Assembly (NCBI GenBank): GCA_026706895.1
Contig: JAPOXW010000013.1
Coordinates: forward strand, 62,001-126,000
Reading direction: 5' to 3'
DNA from: Gammaproteobacteria bacterium
GTDB taxonomy: Bacteria > Pseudomonadota > Gammaproteobacteria > Poriferisulfidales > Poriferisulfidaceae
DNA length: 64,000 nt
Below the pieces are notes generated by a model. The model saw only the letters and a list, made by a program, of their open reading frames with translations. It was not told the origin of the DNA and made no database searches. Below, piece by piece: positions 4,481 to 56,730 of this stretch. Both the position numbers and the translations under genes were made by a program. Every line of letters begins with the position of its first letter. Positions within the stretch are counted from its first letter, which is position 1.

Positions 4481-5911
4481 TTAATTTTCAGAATCTTCCC
4501 ACCATTGGTCACCAATACTCATTTCCTCCTTGATGAAATGACGAGCTATCCATCGCAGAGATTCTGCTGCTACATGAAGTCTTCTTATCTCTTGAGCATC
4601 ATCCGGATCGGAAGGCGATTGATGACTGGCATGCGCAACCGCAATTCTGCAAGAGTTGTAAAGGTAATCTTCTCTCGTTTCTTCGCCACATACCATGTCC
4701 AATTCCTTGAAAACATTATCGCAAGGGTAAGTCGACTGGATTATTTCAAAATTGCCTTTCATCCATTTCTTGATCGGGTCGGGTTTTTTAAGCTTTATTT
4801 CGATTATTTTGTAAAAGTTGAGCACCGCATAGCTAACAATGAAGTTCTGCTGTGCATTTCGGGCTTCGCGGTACAACGCCAAGGCGCGGCATGCTTCGAA
4901 AGCTTCTGGAATACGTCGATCAAATAACCACGGACGAGCCGTCACAAATGCGAGTTCATGCTTGGAAACGGCGACTGGAATAGGGTTCCCAGACCAACCA
5001 TTTTGTGCTATGGCATATTGATCATCAACCCAACTCATAAGGCTAAGAAAACGGTTAATTACAGTCATCGCCTCTTCTGGTGTCAATCCGTATCGGGCTA
5101 TGTCTATATGAACTGATGTTGTCTTCCCTTTGGTTCGCGGCATCAAAACTAGTTCATAGTCTCCAAATTTAACAAGTTGCTCTTCCTCCGGCCAAGTGAC
5201 ATGACAATCAACACCAATATTAAGGTAGTGGGCACCTGGAAAGACTCCTAACTTTCTACGGCGGCGCTCCTCAGCCTCTTCTATGGAATATTCTTCCCCA
5301 TCTCCGGGTGGCTTTTTTAAGTGTCCAGATCGATCAATTTCTCGCACAAGTTTTTTGAAAAATTGTTTGTTTAAGACAATCTCCCGTGATATAGGGGCAT
5401 AACGGGCAACTGGATGAATCTTAGTTTCTTTATTTGCGGTAGTGGCCATCCCTGCGCTACCATTGACGAAATTAGCTTGATGTAATTCACCTTTTGAATC
5501 GGTATAAAGAAATTCTGCATACCCGTGGCTGTTCACACCTGCTTCGGCCATAGAAAGAGACAATTTTTTCAGTTGGTTTCGGGCTGGTTCATATTCAAGC
5601 AGTAAGGTAACTACATCAGCAAGATTTCGTAAATTACGAAATGGTTCTAACAAATTACTCGCAGGCACAAGCCTAGACAAAATGATTGATGTAAAACCAG
5701 CCTGTTCGGACTGAGTTGCGACTATGCCGAAGATAGCGTGAACGACCTGCTTCTCCGTCAGGTGTTGCGCTCTGTTCTCCCTACCTCTGGGTAAGAGCGC
5801 ACAACCTCGAAGTGACCTAAAACGACGCTCATATGCATCAAGTGGTTCTTGCCCAAAGTCACTTGTTCTAGAAAGTCGTTGCAGAAAAAATTCGAGTGAC
5901 CGAGCGTACAT
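4481..5911 (-). CDS. Uncharacterised 476-residue protein with C-terminal HEPN-like region
   Basis: No family is recognised over the whole length. The C-terminal part (about residues 345-465) is helical, with a conserved-looking core (SYAVLNFYKIIE) followed by the sequence R422-IAVA-H427. This fits the R-x4-H motif of HEPN RNases. The N-terminal 300 residues are alpha/beta without an obvious domain, and no signal peptide or membrane helix is present. Codon use is AT-richer than that of the flanking core genes. The gene stands 3 bases downstream of a CoiA-like nuclease gene on the same strand, so the two form a unit. HEPN proteins beside nucleases are common in anti-phage and stress systems, which makes a defence role plausible but unproven. 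Confidence 0.6.
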   Translation of the reverse strand: MYARSLEFFLQRLSRTSDFGQEPLDAYERRFRSLRGCALLPRGRENRAQHLTEKQVVHAIFGIVATQSEQAGFTSIILSRLVPASNLLEPFRNLRNLADVVTLLLEYEPARNQLKKLSLSMAEAGVNSHGYAEFLYTDSKGELHQANFVNGSAGMATTANKETKIHPVARYAPISREIVLNKQFFKKLVREIDRSGHLKKPPGDGEEYSIEEAEERRRRKLGVFPGAHYLNIGVDCHVTWPEEEQLVKFGDYELVLMPRTKGKTTSVHIDIARYGLTPEEAMTVINRFLSLMSWVDDQYAIAQNGWSGNPIPVAVSKHELAFVTARPWLFDRRIPEAFEACRALALYREARNAQQNFIVSYAVLNFYKIIEIKLKKPDPIKKWMKGNFEIIQSTYPCDNVFKELDMVCGEETREDYLYNSCRIAVAHASHQSPSDPDDAQEIRRLHVAAESLRWIARHFIKEEMSIGDQWWEDSEN

Positions 5912-52017: not shown

Positions 52018-52148
52018 GGTTCTTCCTTGACCCGGTATGTCCGGAATCGTGATTTGCTAGGGTGTGTGGTGGTGACTGAACCGTTTATTTTAGCGAATTC
52101 AGGTTGTTACCCAAAAAAGAGGGAATTATATATAAAGGTTGACGAGGG

Positions 52149-52481
52149 CTATGGGGACGGGGCTGTGAAAAACATTTCAACCAGCTTTGTCACTGCCCAC
52201 AAGCCACCCATCAAAATAGCGGCCCAAATGATCATCTTCAACGGCAATCCTTGTATTTCTGCTTTGGTTTCAGCAATTAAATTCATCAGATCGGTAAACG
52301 TTTTGGCAATGCGGTCTTGGGTGCGACTTTCCGATTGCATTACAAAGGTTTGCGTTCTCGCAAAATCAACATGGGTAGCAGCATGTTGCATTTGTATCTC
52401 TAAAGCAGAAATTCTGGATTCGTTCGACATGTAATCCTTGCCAACATTCTCCCGTCTTTCTTGTCCGTTGTCCGCGCTCAT
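52149..52481 (-). CDS. Small coiled-coil protein with C-terminal membrane helix
   Basis: The 110-residue protein has an amphipathic helical N-terminal half with glutamine- and serine-rich segments and one C-terminal membrane helix (MIIWAAILMGGLWAVTKLVEMFF). The layout recalls XhlA-like phage proteins or DUF1640-type membrane coiled coils, but no firm family can be named. It lies 3 bases after the neighbouring small gene on the same strand and in AT-rich DNA. Confidence 0.6.
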   Translation of the reverse strand: MSADNGQERRENVGKDYMSNESRISALEIQMQHAATHVDFARTQTFVMQSESRTQDRIAKTFTDLMNLIAETKAEIQGLPLKMIIWAAILMGGLWAVTKLVEMFFTAPSP

Positions 52482-52484
52482 GGC

Positions 52485-52757
52485 CTATTCTCCCAATGCA
52501 GCCTTGAGCCAAGCCCAAAACACTGTCGGCCCATGTCCTGCGTAATCTGACCCAACCTCCACAACAATCCCCGTGTCGGCTCTCTCTTGTTCTTCCTTCT
52601 TGAAAACCTCTAGTATTTCCGCGAGCTGTCCTGCGGCAAGATTGGAAGTAAAAAAATACATGCAGTCGGAGAGTTCAAAGAAGTTCTCGTCAACACCCTT
52701 TATTTTTTCTGCGACATCGGGCCGCGCGTTCTCAAGGAAAACGAAATAATTTGGCAT
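52485..52757 (-). CDS. Small protein of unknown function
   Basis: A 90-residue alpha/beta protein (start at 52757 or 52766) beginning MPNYFVFLENARPDVAEKI, with a C-terminal VFWAWLKAALGE. No signal peptide, membrane helix or known motif. It is likely in one transcript with the membrane coiled-coil gene 3 bases downstream. Confidence 0.55.
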   Translation of the reverse strand: MPNYFVFLENARPDVAEKIKGVDENFFELSDCMYFFTSNLAAGQLAEILEVFKKEEQERADTGIVVEVGSDYAGHGPTVFWAWLKAALGE

Positions 52758-52886
52758 GAGGATCATCCCTGTCCGACTAGGGATAGTTCATGTTAGCATA
52801 TCCCTATTACCTTAGAGAATTATCTACTTTAGTTGGCAAAAAAGTAGCCGATTTCTCTATAGTGCCTATAAACACTGGCTGCGCGG

Positions 52887-53210
52887 CTAAACATTTTGAT
52901 TCAATATTTTCTTGGCTTCTTCTAACTGCTTTTCAGCTTCTTCAAGTTGCTGCGACACCTCGTGTATCTGAGTAGCTGTCGGATATTCCTGTGGGTCGCG
53001 ATAAACTCTCAAGCCCCCTTGTTTAGGCGCAAAACTGAACTTACCGTTTTCAAGATTCAATGAAAGTCCTTCTCTAATCCTGTTACAAATGATTGCAAGT
53101 GTGTTAGCAAAATCATCTAACTTCTTTTTCAGTTCTGCAATCTTCCTGGTAGCCTCTTCCATATCTACATGAGCCTGGCCCAACATTTCCAGTTTTTCTT
53201 TGCTAGTCAT
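52887..53210 (-). CDS. Small coiled-coil protein of unknown function
   Basis: The 107-residue protein is mostly coiled coil (residues 15-45 and 80-105) with a short beta-like middle (FSFAPKQGGLRVYRDP). No ribosome site is obvious. The start codon at 53208-53210 lies only 7 bases outside the left inverted repeat of the IS1595-like element, so that element inserted directly upstream and may have removed its original promoter. Confidence 0.55.
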   Translation of the reverse strand: MTSKEKLEMLGQAHVDMEEATRKIAELKKKLDDFANTLAIICNRIREGLSLNLENGKFSFAPKQGGLRVYRDPQEYPTATQIHEVSQQLEEAEKQLEEAKKILNQNV

Positions 53211-53217
53211 AATAAAA

Positions 53218-53243
53218 GGTAATTATCCCCTAGAGGCAAGTAA
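53218..53243 (+). repeat. Left terminal inverted repeat of the IS1595-like element
   Basis: 26 bp beginning GGTAATTATCCC and ending GCAAGTAA. Compared with the right copy on the opposite strand, 21 of 26 positions agree; all differences are in the middle. Confidence 0.7.
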
Positions 53244-53280
53244 CATCAGTTAAGCATATCTTATAGCATAGGGGGATGCC

Positions 53281-55623
53281 TTGCCCCCCCCCCCTACAGA
53301 TAGTGAATTTAGAACCTACGATTACATTCGCAAGGTTCTAAAGGATTTGGGCTGGGACACCAGAAACCCGGCTCGCGGCGGAAGCGTTTATACCCAGCAT
53401 GAGTTCTACGGGCATGACCCGTTGCTTGCGGATGCGCTGGGGCGGAAAAGCCCTGAAAACATCGTACTCGTTCCATACGAGCGGTTCATCCGTTACTGGA
53501 TTATCGAGGCCAAACGCTCGCACCGGCAACTGAAACAGGCTCTACGCGAAGCGAAAGGCTACGCGGACAAGGTGAACGACCGGCAACAGAATGCCGCTCG
53601 ATTCGCCACGGGCATCGCCGGAACGCCCGACCAGTCGTTCTATGTGGAAACCTGCTACTGGGATGGCGAACAATGGCAGGAAGTCCAAATCAACGACTAC
53701 GAAACCACGGGATTCCTCTCTCCCGACCAGTGCCTGAACATCCTGAAGCGCAATGATCCGAACTCCGCGATTTTCGATGATGACCCAGACCGCTTTCTAA
53801 ACAAGGCAAACGCCATCAACAAGACGCTACATGACAATCAGATACCAGTGGGGGACAGGGCGGGGTTTATGGCCGCGCTCCTACTTGCGCTGGCGCAGGA
53901 TGCCAACCTGACCATCCACAGCCGACCGACTGCGCTGGTGCGCGAGATCAACGGGAACATAGAGGATATGCTCAAGCACCACGGCAAAGAGGAATTTGCC
54001 GCGTCTATCCAACTCACCCTTCCGGCCACGGCGAAGAATCACAAGCAGTACCGGAAAGCCATCATCGAGACGCTACAGCACTTGCGGGAAATGAACATTC
54101 GCTCCGCCATCAACGGCGGCGATGACGCGCTGGGCAAGTTTTACGAGACTTTCCTCCGCTACGCCAACGGCGCAAAGGAAATGGGCATCGTCCTGACCCC
54201 CAGACATATCACGCAATTTGCCGTTGATGTAGTCGGCATTGGAATTTCGGACAGGATATTCGACCCGGCCTGTGGTACTGGTGGGTTTCTGGTGTCCACT
54301 ATGGACACCATGAGGAAGTCGCTGGGCGGAAGCCGACAGAGGGACTACGAGGAGTTCAAGAGCAACTGCCTGTTCGGTGTGGACAAGACGGACGATGTGT
54401 ACAGCCTTGCGCTGGTGAACATGATTTTCAGGGGGGACGGCAAATCCCGAATGTACGATGGGGACTGCTTCGACCATGAGTTTTGGGAGCGGGACGGCGA
54501 AGTGTTCTACACCATGCCGAACGAGGGCGACAGGGAGCCGCAGGGAGCCGTCAAGCCATTTTCCCGTGTGTTGATGAACCCGCCGTTCAAGCAGGAACCG
54601 GATGAGCCGATGTTCGTGGATTACGCACTGCGGCAATCGAGACCAGACGCGATCCTGTTTGCCGTGTTGCCCGCCGTGGCGATCAGTGGGGCGCAGCATT
54701 CAGAATGGCGCAAGGCTCTTCTGAAAAGGCATACGGTGCTGGCCGTAATCAAACTGGACAAGAGCGTGTTCTATCCGATTGCCGAAAGCACTTACGCGCT
54801 GATACTGAAAGCGCACTCGCCGCATGATTTCAGGCGCGACACCTTTCTAGGCGTTCTGCATGACGATGACCACAGGCCGCGCAGATCCAAAGTGCTGTCC
54901 CAGCATGAGGCGAGGGACAATGTAGAGGCCATGACGGAACAGGTGCGCCGCCATGTCCTGGGCAAGCCGTGCGAACCGGATATACCACGCATCCAGATAT
55001 TGGCTTCGATCAACCCGGACGAAGGGTGCGACTTTGCCCCGGAAGCCTATCTGAACAGTGGCGAGCCGGAGGGCAGGATCGACCTTGCGGACTTGGTGGC
55101 ATCATTGGACTACGCCAAATCCAGTGTACGAAGCCGCAATAAAAAGCGCGGCATTCACGCGCTGGAAAATCAGAGGGCGTTTCCACTCCGCGAGTTCATC
55201 CAACGGGAAGTATCGCCCACGCTGAAAAGTCTCAAAGACTTTCCGAATGGAAGCGTGCCTGTAATATCCGCCACGGCGAACAATAACGGGATCAAGGAAT
55301 GGAAAGATGTACCGGACGACCTTCTGCTTGAAAACTGCGTATCCGTTTCAAAGGTTCACAATACGAAGCCATGCCGCGCCTTCTGGCATCCGTACCGCTT
55401 CGCGGCCATCCATACCGTGTTGCTGTTCGAGCCGATTGAAGCGTTCGCGCAGAATGAAAACGCCGTGCTGTACCTTTGCCAAGCCATCACGGATACGAAC
55501 GCATGGCGTTACGATTATGCGAGGAATGTCCTGTTGGACAAGGTTGAAGTCTATCTGCCGTGCTTGCGTTCTGGTAAAGTGGACATGGCGCGCATCATCC
55601 AGATCGCGGAGGAAGCCAAATGA
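53281..55623 (+). CDS. Single-chain restriction-modification protein: nuclease, N6-adenine methylase and specificity region
   Basis: The 780-residue protein has an HsdR-like N-terminal nuclease region with WIIEAK (I75-K78), an HsdM-type N6-adenine methylase with motif I DPACGTGGF from residue 328 and motif IV NPPF from 433, and a C-terminal part (about 600-780) resembling a target-recognition domain. This is the plan of fused type IIG / type I-like enzymes that cut and methylate with one chain. Translation starts at a TTG (53281), 5 bases after AGGGGG, and runs straight into an 11-cytosine tract encoding residues 2-5. An ATG at 53276 is out of frame unless the tract gains one base. It is on the opposite strand to the transposase and inside the same inverted repeats. 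Confidence 0.85.
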   Translation: MPPPPTDSEFRTYDYIRKVLKDLGWDTRNPARGGSVYTQHEFYGHDPLLADALGRKSPENIVLVPYERFIRYWIIEAKRSHRQLKQALREAKGYADKVNDRQQNAARFATGIAGTPDQSFYVETCYWDGEQWQEVQINDYETTGFLSPDQCLNILKRNDPNSAIFDDDPDRFLNKANAINKTLHDNQIPVGDRAGFMAALLLALAQDANLTIHSRPTALVREINGNIEDMLKHHGKEEFAASIQLTLPATAKNHKQYRKAIIETLQHLREMNIRSAINGGDDALGKFYETFLRYANGAKEMGIVLTPRHITQFAVDVVGIGISDRIFDPACGTGGFLVSTMDTMRKSLGGSRQRDYEEFKSNCLFGVDKTDDVYSLALVNMIFRGDGKSRMYDGDCFDHEFWERDGEVFYTMPNEGDREPQGAVKPFSRVLMNPPFKQEPDEPMFVDYALRQSRPDAILFAVLPAVAISGAQHSEWRKALLKRHTVLAVIKLDKSVFYPIAESTYALILKAHSPHDFRRDTFLGVLHDDDHRPRRSKVLSQHEARDNVEAMTEQVRRHVLGKPCEPDIPRIQILASINPDEGCDFAPEAYLNSGEPEGRIDLADLVASLDYAKSSVRSRNKKRGIHALENQRAFPLREFIQREVSPTLKSLKDFPNGSVPVISATANNNGIKEWKDVPDDLLLENCVSVSKVHNTKPCRAFWHPYRFAAIHTVLLFEPIEAFAQNENAVLYLCQAITDTNAWRYDYARNVLLDKVEVYLPCLRSGKVDMARIIQIAEEAK
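53284..53294 (+). repeat. Poly-C tract (11 C) at the start of the restriction-modification gene
   Basis: Eleven consecutive cytosines lie immediately after the TTG start codon. Tract-length change would shift the reading frame: 11 C opens the TTG frame, 12 or 9 C would open the frame of the ATG at 53276, and 10 or 13 C would open neither. Confidence 0.9.
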
Positions 55624-55760
55624 CAGCCCAGCCGAAGCCCAAACCTTCCGAGGCAAATCCTCCCGCCGAGCAGAAGGAACTCCACCCGCAGGGCAAGGAG
55701 CGGTTCCGCGAATTGCTCAAGCGGGCTGTACCTCCTGCAAAAGTTCCATCAAGCGACTGA
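55620..55760 (+). CDS. Small charged protein coupled to the restriction-modification gene
   Basis: A 46-residue reading frame starts at the ATGA overlap with the upstream stop codon and encodes a proline- and lysine-rich sequence (MTAQPKPKPSEANPPAEQ, then KERFRELLKRAVPPAK). The 3' end overlaps the convergent transposase gene by 44 bases. It could be a complete small partner, or the start of a longer gene cut by the transposon. No family recognised. Confidence 0.5.
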   Translation: MTAQPKPKPSEANPPAEQKELHPQGKERFRELLKRAVPPAKVPSSD

Positions 55761-56586
55761 ACATACTGGATGGAGCCTTCCGAAGATTGTGGCGGAAGTC
55801 GAACTCCGAAAGGTACTTGCTCATGTGCTTGGCGGAGATATGAACATGAGTTCCCCGCACACTGCGCTTGAACAGCGACCAGTGGCCTTCCAGCGAGTTC
55901 ACATGGCAACCATTTCTGGCAAACTCCCCGCGTCCGTGATGAACGCTGTCATGGTGATAACCGCGCAATCCCAGAGTGGTGTAGGTGCGGAGTTCGTCCG
56001 TGTGGATGAGCGTACCCTCCCGGACATTCTCGCGAATAATCGGCTCTAGCGTCTTACGCTTCACATTTGGCACGGGCTGGGTCTTGATCTCCCCGTCCCG
56101 CTCCTTCATGCCGAACACAATCGTCTTGCCTTCGGCTCCACGCCCACGCTTGCCCTTACGCTTGCCGCCGACATAGGATTCGTCAACCTCCACGCATCCA
56201 AACAGGCCGCCACCGCCATTCTCTGCCATCAGTTTCCTGATCTGATGGCCAATGCGCCACGCGCATTTGTAACTCACGCCAAGCTGCCGTTCCAGTTCCT
56301 TGCCAGACACGCCATGCCGCGTAGCCGTAAACAGGTACATGGCGTAGAACCACTTGTGAAGCGGTGTGCTGGATTTCTCGAACGGAGTGCCAACACAGGG
56401 ATAGACATGGGCGCCGCAGAACTGGCAAGCGAAAGCGCGGCGTTTGCGGATGCGGTGGTACTTGGTTTCCTGTTTGCATTCTTCGCATACTGGCTTGTCG
56501 CCGTAGCGAAGTTCCATGATGGTGTTCAGACACGCATCATCGTTTGGATATTCCTTCTGAAACTCGTAGAATGTGTAGCGAGGCAT
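55717..56586 (-). CDS. IS1595-family transposase
   Basis: The 289-residue protein (start MPRYTFYEFQ at 56586) has an N-terminal zinc ribbon (CEECKQE, CQFCGAHVYP) and the ISXO2/IS1595 catalytic core: DESYVGGKRKGKRGRG, HTDELRTYTTL and VNSLEGHWSLFKRSVRG, the expected acidic and N/E residues. It looks intact. The frame extends to 56622 without homology. It faces the restriction-modification gene tail to tail. Confidence 0.9.
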   Translation of the reverse strand: MPRYTFYEFQKEYPNDDACLNTIMELRYGDKPVCEECKQETKYHRIRKRRAFACQFCGAHVYPCVGTPFEKSSTPLHKWFYAMYLFTATRHGVSGKELERQLGVSYKCAWRIGHQIRKLMAENGGGGLFGCVEVDESYVGGKRKGKRGRGAEGKTIVFGMKERDGEIKTQPVPNVKRKTLEPIIRENVREGTLIHTDELRTYTTLGLRGYHHDSVHHGRGEFARNGCHVNSLEGHWSLFKRSVRGTHVHISAKHMSKYLSEFDFRHNLRKAPSSMFSRLMELLQEVQPA

Positions 56587-56642
56587 AGTAAGTTTCCTGC
56601 TCTGGATTGATTCGACACTCATATCCTAGCAGGAAATTTACT
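56587..56642. repeat. Inverted repeat upstream of the transposase gene
   Basis: Two 15-bp arms (56587-56601 and 56628-56642, one mismatch) with a 26-base spacer lie directly upstream of the transposase start; the outer arm overlaps the inner end of the right terminal repeat. Possible transposase operator or a subterminal binding site. Confidence 0.5.
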
Positions 56643-56663
56643 TGCTGTCAAGGGATAATTACC
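56638..56663 (-). repeat. Right terminal inverted repeat of the IS1595-like element
   Basis: Read on the minus strand it begins GGTAATTATCCC and ends GCAAGTAA, matching the left copy at 21 of 26 positions. It lies 52 bases upstream of the transposase start and 67 bases before the groL stop. Confidence 0.7.
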
Positions 56664-56730
56664 AAATTTAAAGATGTTCGAAGTGACCCGAAAAACGGGG
56701 CCGCTCGAAAACAACAGCACAACCGTACGA

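Follow-up and report, generated by a model that had tools for sequence, protein, structure and literature searches.

The stretch of DNA analysed here (hereafter the window) comprises 64,000 nucleotides of contig JAPOXW010000013.1 from a gammaproteobacterium of the family Poriferisulfidaceae (GCA_026706895.1), and this report concerns a unit of 3,446 bp at positions 53218-56663 of the window, located between ndk and groL. Two convergent gene blocks lie between the inverted repeats at the ends of this unit: a predicted single-chain restriction-modification (R-M) gene followed by a small open reading frame (ORF), and a gene for a transposase of the IS1595 family of insertion sequences (ISs) (Table 1). 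An original prediction, made from the sequence letters, had described these parts and read them as an R-M gene carried inside a transposable unit. The inverted repeats, the small ORF coupled to the R-M gene through an ATGA overlap, the uninterrupted transposase and the tail-to-tail layout were all recovered as described, and the anatomy, ends and transposase family of the element are directly observed.

Table 1. Features of the element between ndk and groL (positions are those of the window)
Feature	Position	Strand	Remarks
Terminal inverted repeat, cargo end	53218..53243		GGTAATTATCCCCTAGAGGCAAGTAA; without the TTGACA of the opposite end
Shine-Dalgarno-like AGGGGG	53270..53275	+	5 nt ahead of the TTG start; putative, from sequence
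Predicted single-chain R-M protein, type IIG-like	53281..55623	+	780 aa, TTG start
C11 tract	53284..53294	+	right behind the TTG, keeps the 780-aa ORF in frame; predicted to mediate phase variation
Candidate nuclease motif	53452..53514	+	PENIVLVPYERFIRYWIIEAK; E replaces the usual D; IEAK invariant in relatives
Methylase motif I	54262..54285	+	DPACGTGG
Methylase motif IV	54577..54588	+	NPPF
Proline/lysine-rich ORF	55620..55760	+	46 aa; ATGA overlap with the R-M stop; overlaps the 3' end of the transposase gene
IS1595-family transposase	55717..56622	-	301 aa, intact; zinc ribbon and DDE domain
Promoter-like site, TTGACA-17-TAGGAT	56623..56651	-	10/12, extended TG; reads into the transposase
Terminal inverted repeat, transposase end	56638..56663		

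The two terminal repeats are inverted copies of 26 nt with identity at 21 of 26 positions (81% complementary), and both start with GGTAATTATCCC, as do the ends of related elements, to which they can be aligned as terminal inverted repeats of IS1595 type. A search of the 1,687,944-bp genome with the repeat pattern, allowing up to three mismatches, returned exactly two matches, namely the element's own ends in inverted orientation, and the reversed control pattern returned none in the whole genome at the same threshold. A second, nearer inverted repeat around the transposase alone, which would reveal a simple IS hidden inside the unit and had been named beforehand as a sign against it, was searched for and not found. 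The R-M ORF lies inside the repeat pair, that is, a passenger gene foreign to transposition stands between the ends of a single IS, which is the defining arrangement of a transporter IS (tIS).

The window transposase contains both the DDE_Tnp_IS1595 domain (PF12762, 4.8e-41) and the N-terminal zinc ribbon (PF12760, 9.1e-9), the latter being a feature of all IS1595 groups except IS1016 (PMC8101967). It matches NF033547 at 4.6e-61 (206 bits against a cut-off of 75), and in the transposase alignment C46, C49, C66 and C69 are invariant and the DDE positions are intact. The true start of the protein is likely the ATG at 56586 (MPRYTF...). A tree of 87 transposases places the window protein in a group with those of L115, L117 and L042 (L, G and C numbers denote loci, genomes and contigs, respectively) with support of 100/81 and 100/84, and all three of these neighbours are cargo-bearing; the hidden Markov model panel of transposases had included one wrong sequence, the methylase L142, which formed a very long branch and was ignored. 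The -35 of the promoter-like site that reads into the transposase falls within the terminal repeat. An inward -35-like TTGAC(A) is present in the terminal repeats of L042-L044, L117-L122 and the window element. The copy near the transposase is conserved and the one on the cargo side often degraded, so that an end of these elements may itself serve as a promoter.

The nearest transposases, which are 42-55% identical to that of the window, were traced to their neighbourhoods. Those of L043 (a Geminicoccaceae plasmid), L044 (a Sulfitobacter plasmid) and L042 (a viral contig) lie in units with ends of the ..ATTATCCCCTTGACAGCAAGTA.. type, which enclose the transposase and a convergent cargo unrelated to that of the window. 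L043 (2,527 bp) and L044 (1,670 bp) are bordered by perfect 8-bp target-site duplications (TSDs; GCACGCAA and ACTCGAAT, respectively), L042 (2,034 bp) by a 7-bp duplication (GGTCACC), and L117 (2,795 bp), L118 and L119 by the TSDs AAAGATGT, AATCTTTA and TTTCGAGG, respectively. The nearest transposases reside in like-ended units with exact 8-bp duplications, and the reading of the window sequence as one unit therefore holds.

R-M genes inside inverted repeats and exact 8-bp TSDs occur on other IS1595 elements of the same genome and genus. The genome harbors two further IS1595 elements, L133 and L134, each with identical ends and an exact TSD (TAACAAGA and TTGATTTA, respectively), whose cargo is a methylase (PF01555 N6_N4_Mtase, 3e-41 and 4e-42) with an Mrr_cat-like C-terminus (E of 0.05 and 0.015). 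For L133, on contig C3, sister species G002 and G001 contain the uninterrupted empty site, with a single TAACAAGA and the flanks joined; for the second element, the alignment of G004 runs through the site with no insert, and the TSD-like stretch there is diverged. In sister species, L136 carries an N6_N4_Mtase-HNH fusion (TSD AAATGGCC) and L135 a type II pair (MTase_II, 8e-58, and REase_II, 3.5e-12; TSD TTTCATTA), L140 has a methylase and a 209-aa ORF behind a broken transposase, and L142 has an EcoRI-type methylase (2e-136) and a GmrSD_N-HNH protein behind a transposase remnant; in the same order, L143 has a D12 methylase behind a transposase remnant. The methylase start overlaps the transposase stop in L135, L136 and L140. 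Mobility is observed in relatives, in the form of target duplications (8-bp TSDs in L043, L044, L117, L133-L136, L166 and others), empty sites and multiple copies.

The predicted R-M protein consists of an N-terminal PD-(D/E)xK-like region, an N6 adenine methylase and a C-terminal part that probably serves in target recognition. The methylase of the fused nuclease-methylase originally proposed is certain (PF02384 N6_Mtase, 9e-25; motifs DPACGTGG and NPPF intact), and the best PADLOC match of the protein is the type IIG REase_MTase (3e-34). The nuclease half is a prediction from the alignment of a P-E/D..IEAK motif with relatives, across which IEAK and the surrounding positions are invariant; the distant relative L268 (28%) has the canonical IPDFLVV...IEAK where the window protein has SPENIVLV...IIEAK, and E is able to replace D in the PD-(D/E)xK superfamily. 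On the basis of this alignment and the intact DPACGTGG and NPPF motifs, the protein would be expected to methylate DNA and, less surely, to cleave it. Viral contigs were searched with the R-M protein and gave no match, and no IS1595 gene is annotated adjacent to the named plasmid relatives of methylase-nuclease fusions (Candidatus Megaera, Microbacterium). The 46-aa ORF had no match in family searches and may not be a real gene.

The start of the R-M gene, TTG-C11, is open, and one base more or less would place the ORF out of frame with the TTG; such a frame-setting tract of simple sequence early in the coding region is the mark of a phase-variable gene. The genome has one copy of the window element, and variation in tract length between copies is observed in a related element of G202 (one contig, 2.16 Mb). 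This methylase-HNH element (2,530/2,531 bp) is present in three copies, at three sites with distinct TSDs (AAATTAAA, TAAATTTT and TTATTTTA), which differ only by a single base of the C tract just behind the methylase ATG, the frame closing after 25 aa with seven cytosines (two copies) and a 397-aa protein being open with eight (one copy), so that both off and on states are represented. The tract has the same position as in the window gene in L134 (ATGTCG-C11, open) and in L133 (GTGA-C11, closed from the overlapping GTG, where C9 or C12 would open it); all of these homopolymer lengths are assembly-derived. A start-proximal C tract was present in 4 of 9 R-M elements vs 0 of 40 others (Fisher p = 6e-4), a comparison that is not fully independent, as L133 and L134 share cargo ancestry, and from which L119 (7.1 kb), L120 and L162 were excluded, their long pairings being probably wrong end-joins. 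The R-M cargo of the window element is probably phase-variable. An initial notion that C11 tracts are unique to R-M genes was dropped, with about 36 tracts of at least C9 in the genome (an estimate from 214 overlapping matches); the special feature is the position of the tract at the R-M gene start, not poly-C itself. Long poly-C tracts are partly clustered in G000, for example at contig C8, positions 125381-125465, and contig C21, positions 4530-4546, and the many tracts of this genome are possibly further phase-variable loci or assembly artefacts.

R-M cargo is not confined to the genus. The sample comprised 102 IS1595 transposase ORFs at 94 loci, picked by similarity to the window transposase and not as a random survey; 69 of the ORFs were delimited by matching ends and an exact duplication, 13 as simple ISs (<1.25 kb) and 56 as longer elements, figures that include a few doubtful, very long elements and count some elements once for each of their transposase ORFs. 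Beyond the genus, exact 8-bp TSDs flank L166, an N6_N4_Mtase-HNH fusion, and L185, a BcgI-like pair of a type IIG methylase (4.5e-98) and a specificity subunit, and L196 (G640:C6; about 3.6 kb, TSD TTTTTTTG) carries PD-Lambda-5_A (4e-164) and a D12 methylase, which together look like a full defence system. The R-M label requires at least seven changes on the transposase tree, and R-M cargo was therefore gained or lost several times. The transposases of L133 and L136 are 72% identical and those of L134 and L166 68%, vs a Mrr-type cargo common to L133 and L134 (64% identity; their transposases 45%) and an HNH-type cargo common to L136 and L166 (49% identity; their transposases 45%); the relationships of the cargo do not follow those of the transposases. 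In addition, DUF3800 proteins are recurrent IS1595 cargo (L186, L206 and a similar ORF in L188), and in L186 the DUF3800 protein is paired with a P63C-domain protein.

Collectively, the stretch 53218-56663 is very probably an IS1595-family tIS, in which a DDE transposase and two 26-bp ends move a convergent, single-polypeptide type IIG-like R-M passenger; the proposal of an R-M gene as cargo is well supported by the lack of a closer inverted repeat and by the like-ended relatives with TSDs. Several observations weigh against this reading. The window copy has no 8-bp target duplication (TAATAAAA / element / AAATTTAA), which is usual in the family and marks a clean insertion; the element is single-copy, with no further copies of its repeat pair in its own genome, and TTGACA, present in the transposase-end repeat, has been lost from the cargo-end repeat. 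No exact empty site was found in the genus, where the ndk-groL gap differs between sister species. The closest relatives of the R-M protein, L024 and L268, are not on IS1595 elements; L024, a Candidatus Poribacteria protein of 57% identity, has neither transposase nor repeats, a situation that the original prediction had regarded as contrary to a unit and that is read here as an independent origin of the cargo. The nuclease-family score is non-significant (HSDR_N, E=0.06), PE stands in place of PD at residues 58-59, and an AlphaFold model of the R-M protein (two sequences) had a predicted local distance difference test score of 33 and was not used. The window unit is an IS1595-family element by its protein and ends, and not a proven clean insertion.

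The gap between ndk and groL (52018-56730 in the window; L052, L053, L054 and L055 in sister species) contains three small ORFs in addition to the element. It measures about 67 bp in G002, holds 2.7 kb of small genes in G001 and two hypothetical genes in G004, and in G003 contains a 1,146-aa SIR2-type gene that matches Dsr1 anti-phage models (2e-62); the gap is a turnover hotspot. The anticipated empty site with one 8-bp duplication was not found between ndk and groL, the extra DNA of the window relative to G002 including the three small ORFs; a site of the anticipated type does exist for the sister element L133. The small ORFs, to the left of the element at 52149-53210, have a G+C content of 44% vs 57% for the window, and the start codon of the last one lies 8 bp from the element, an insertion that would have removed its ribosome-binding site. 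At 56664-56710, beside the element, the hairpin of the groL terminator, which reads GGGCCCC...GGGGCCC in sister species, has decayed, and this suggests a small loss of flanking DNA at the groL-side end. We infer a real element in a variable locus, the flanks of which were disturbed afterwards.

Such disturbance could have gone further: the unit may once have been mobile, an adjacent deletion or a recombination event in the ndk-groL hotspot may have removed the TSD, the cargo end may have drifted, and the R-M gene may now be a chromosomal resident. The missing TSD and the single copy in a variable neighbourhood speak for this scenario, as do ends matching at 21 of 26 positions, compared with 20/20 over the first 20 bases in L133, L134, L135, L136 and L166. 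However, the transposase ORF, its zinc ribbon, DDE positions and end promoter are intact, the R-M ORF is open across 780 codons, and other elements with ends matching at only 14-17 of 20 positions retain exact TSDs; a fossil element is thus possible, if doubtful. It is unlikely that the passenger is a solitary phase-variable methylase, serving as a gene-regulation switch with a degenerate nuclease site (PE..IEAK). The PE at residues 58-59 and the HSDR_N score would fit such a protein, whereas the invariance of IEAK and its surroundings in relatives, one of them with the canonical motif, the ability of E to stand for D, and the undoubted nuclease domains of sister elements (HNH in L136 and L166) argue for a nuclease. 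Chance co-location of an R-M gene and an IS1595 copy between coincidental outer repeats is highly improbable and largely refuted: the hotspot does hold different genes in each species, including the Dsr1-like gene in G003, and R-M genes do occur alone elsewhere, but the genome has no third repeat of this kind, the two repeats start like those of related elements, and cargo-bearing related elements have exact TSDs.

Under the tIS interpretation, transcription from the TTGACA/TAGGAT promoter in the adjacent end would yield the transposase of the window copy, which would cut out and insert the whole 3.4-kb unit. The R-M protein would be translated from the TTG in a frame set by the C11 tract, and slippage would switch it on or off. 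When on, it would methylate its recognition site and cut unmethylated DNA, and the outcome would be defence and possibly maintenance of the element. Addictive maintenance of the element by its R-M cargo is a conjecture.

Passenger-carrying tISs of the IS1595 family are known, as the original prediction had stated, according to the statement in PMC3129680 that cites Siguier et al. 2009. The window element shares with them a transposase with zinc ribbon and DDE domain, terminal repeats, the 8-bp duplications of its relatives and a passenger foreign to transposition; it differs in that the passenger is an R-M system and in the 5' poly-C switch found in several R-M elements. IS-linked movement of R-M genes, on composite transposons or between flanking ISs, is also known, for PaeR7I and for the PluTI and Rhizobium examples cited there (PMC3031569). 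Both kinds of R-M genes are moved by insertion-sequence enzymes, but the PaeR7I-type genes are flanked by IS copies, whereas the window R-M gene lies inside one IS, between its ends. With type IIG/BcgI-type enzymes (PADLOC PDLC03608 and PDLC03602) the window protein shares an N6_Mtase methylase and a predicted nuclease in one chain, and PDLC03608 is collinear with it over residues 120-530; the relationship is only distant, however, the nuclease and recognition domains are predicted, and there is no separate specificity gene such as that of L185. Phase-variable R-M genes are known from Campylobacter, Helicobacter and Haemophilus, in type IIG and type III genes with poly-G/C tracts, and the window gene resembles these in having, at the 5' end of its coding sequence, a homopolymer on whose length the reading frame depends. 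To our knowledge, none of the phase-variable R-M genes of these three genera lies inside a transposable unit with its own transposase. A full-text literature search, with Siguier 2009 and ISfinder outside its scope, found no report joining an IS1595 passenger, R-M and phase variation, and the priority of a phase-variable R-M cargo inside an IS1595 tIS is uncertain.

The genes of R-M systems rank with the most mobile ones in bacteria, and the movement of lone R-M genes has so far mostly been ascribed to plasmids, phages or composite transposons, or to insertions without an explanation. For the element described here the vehicle can be named, a small IS with its own transposase, whose relatives display TSDs, empty sites and a genome with three copies in on and off states. 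With evenly balanced confidence, we propose that compact, phase-variable R-M systems have a standing vehicle in IS1595 tISs: transposase lineages would repeatedly acquire and swap a one- or two-gene R-M cargo, and the 5' poly-C switch would silence or activate individual copies, so that a cargo that cuts DNA could reach new sites and hosts without lethal effect and multiply in one genome. Two questions thereby become testable, namely whether R-M cargo helps a transposon to persist and whether phase switching makes a cargo that is toxic when unprotected transposable. As the R-M, BcgI-like and PD-Lambda-5 cargo found here suggests, the passenger genes of ISs are a source of defence systems that has received too little attention.

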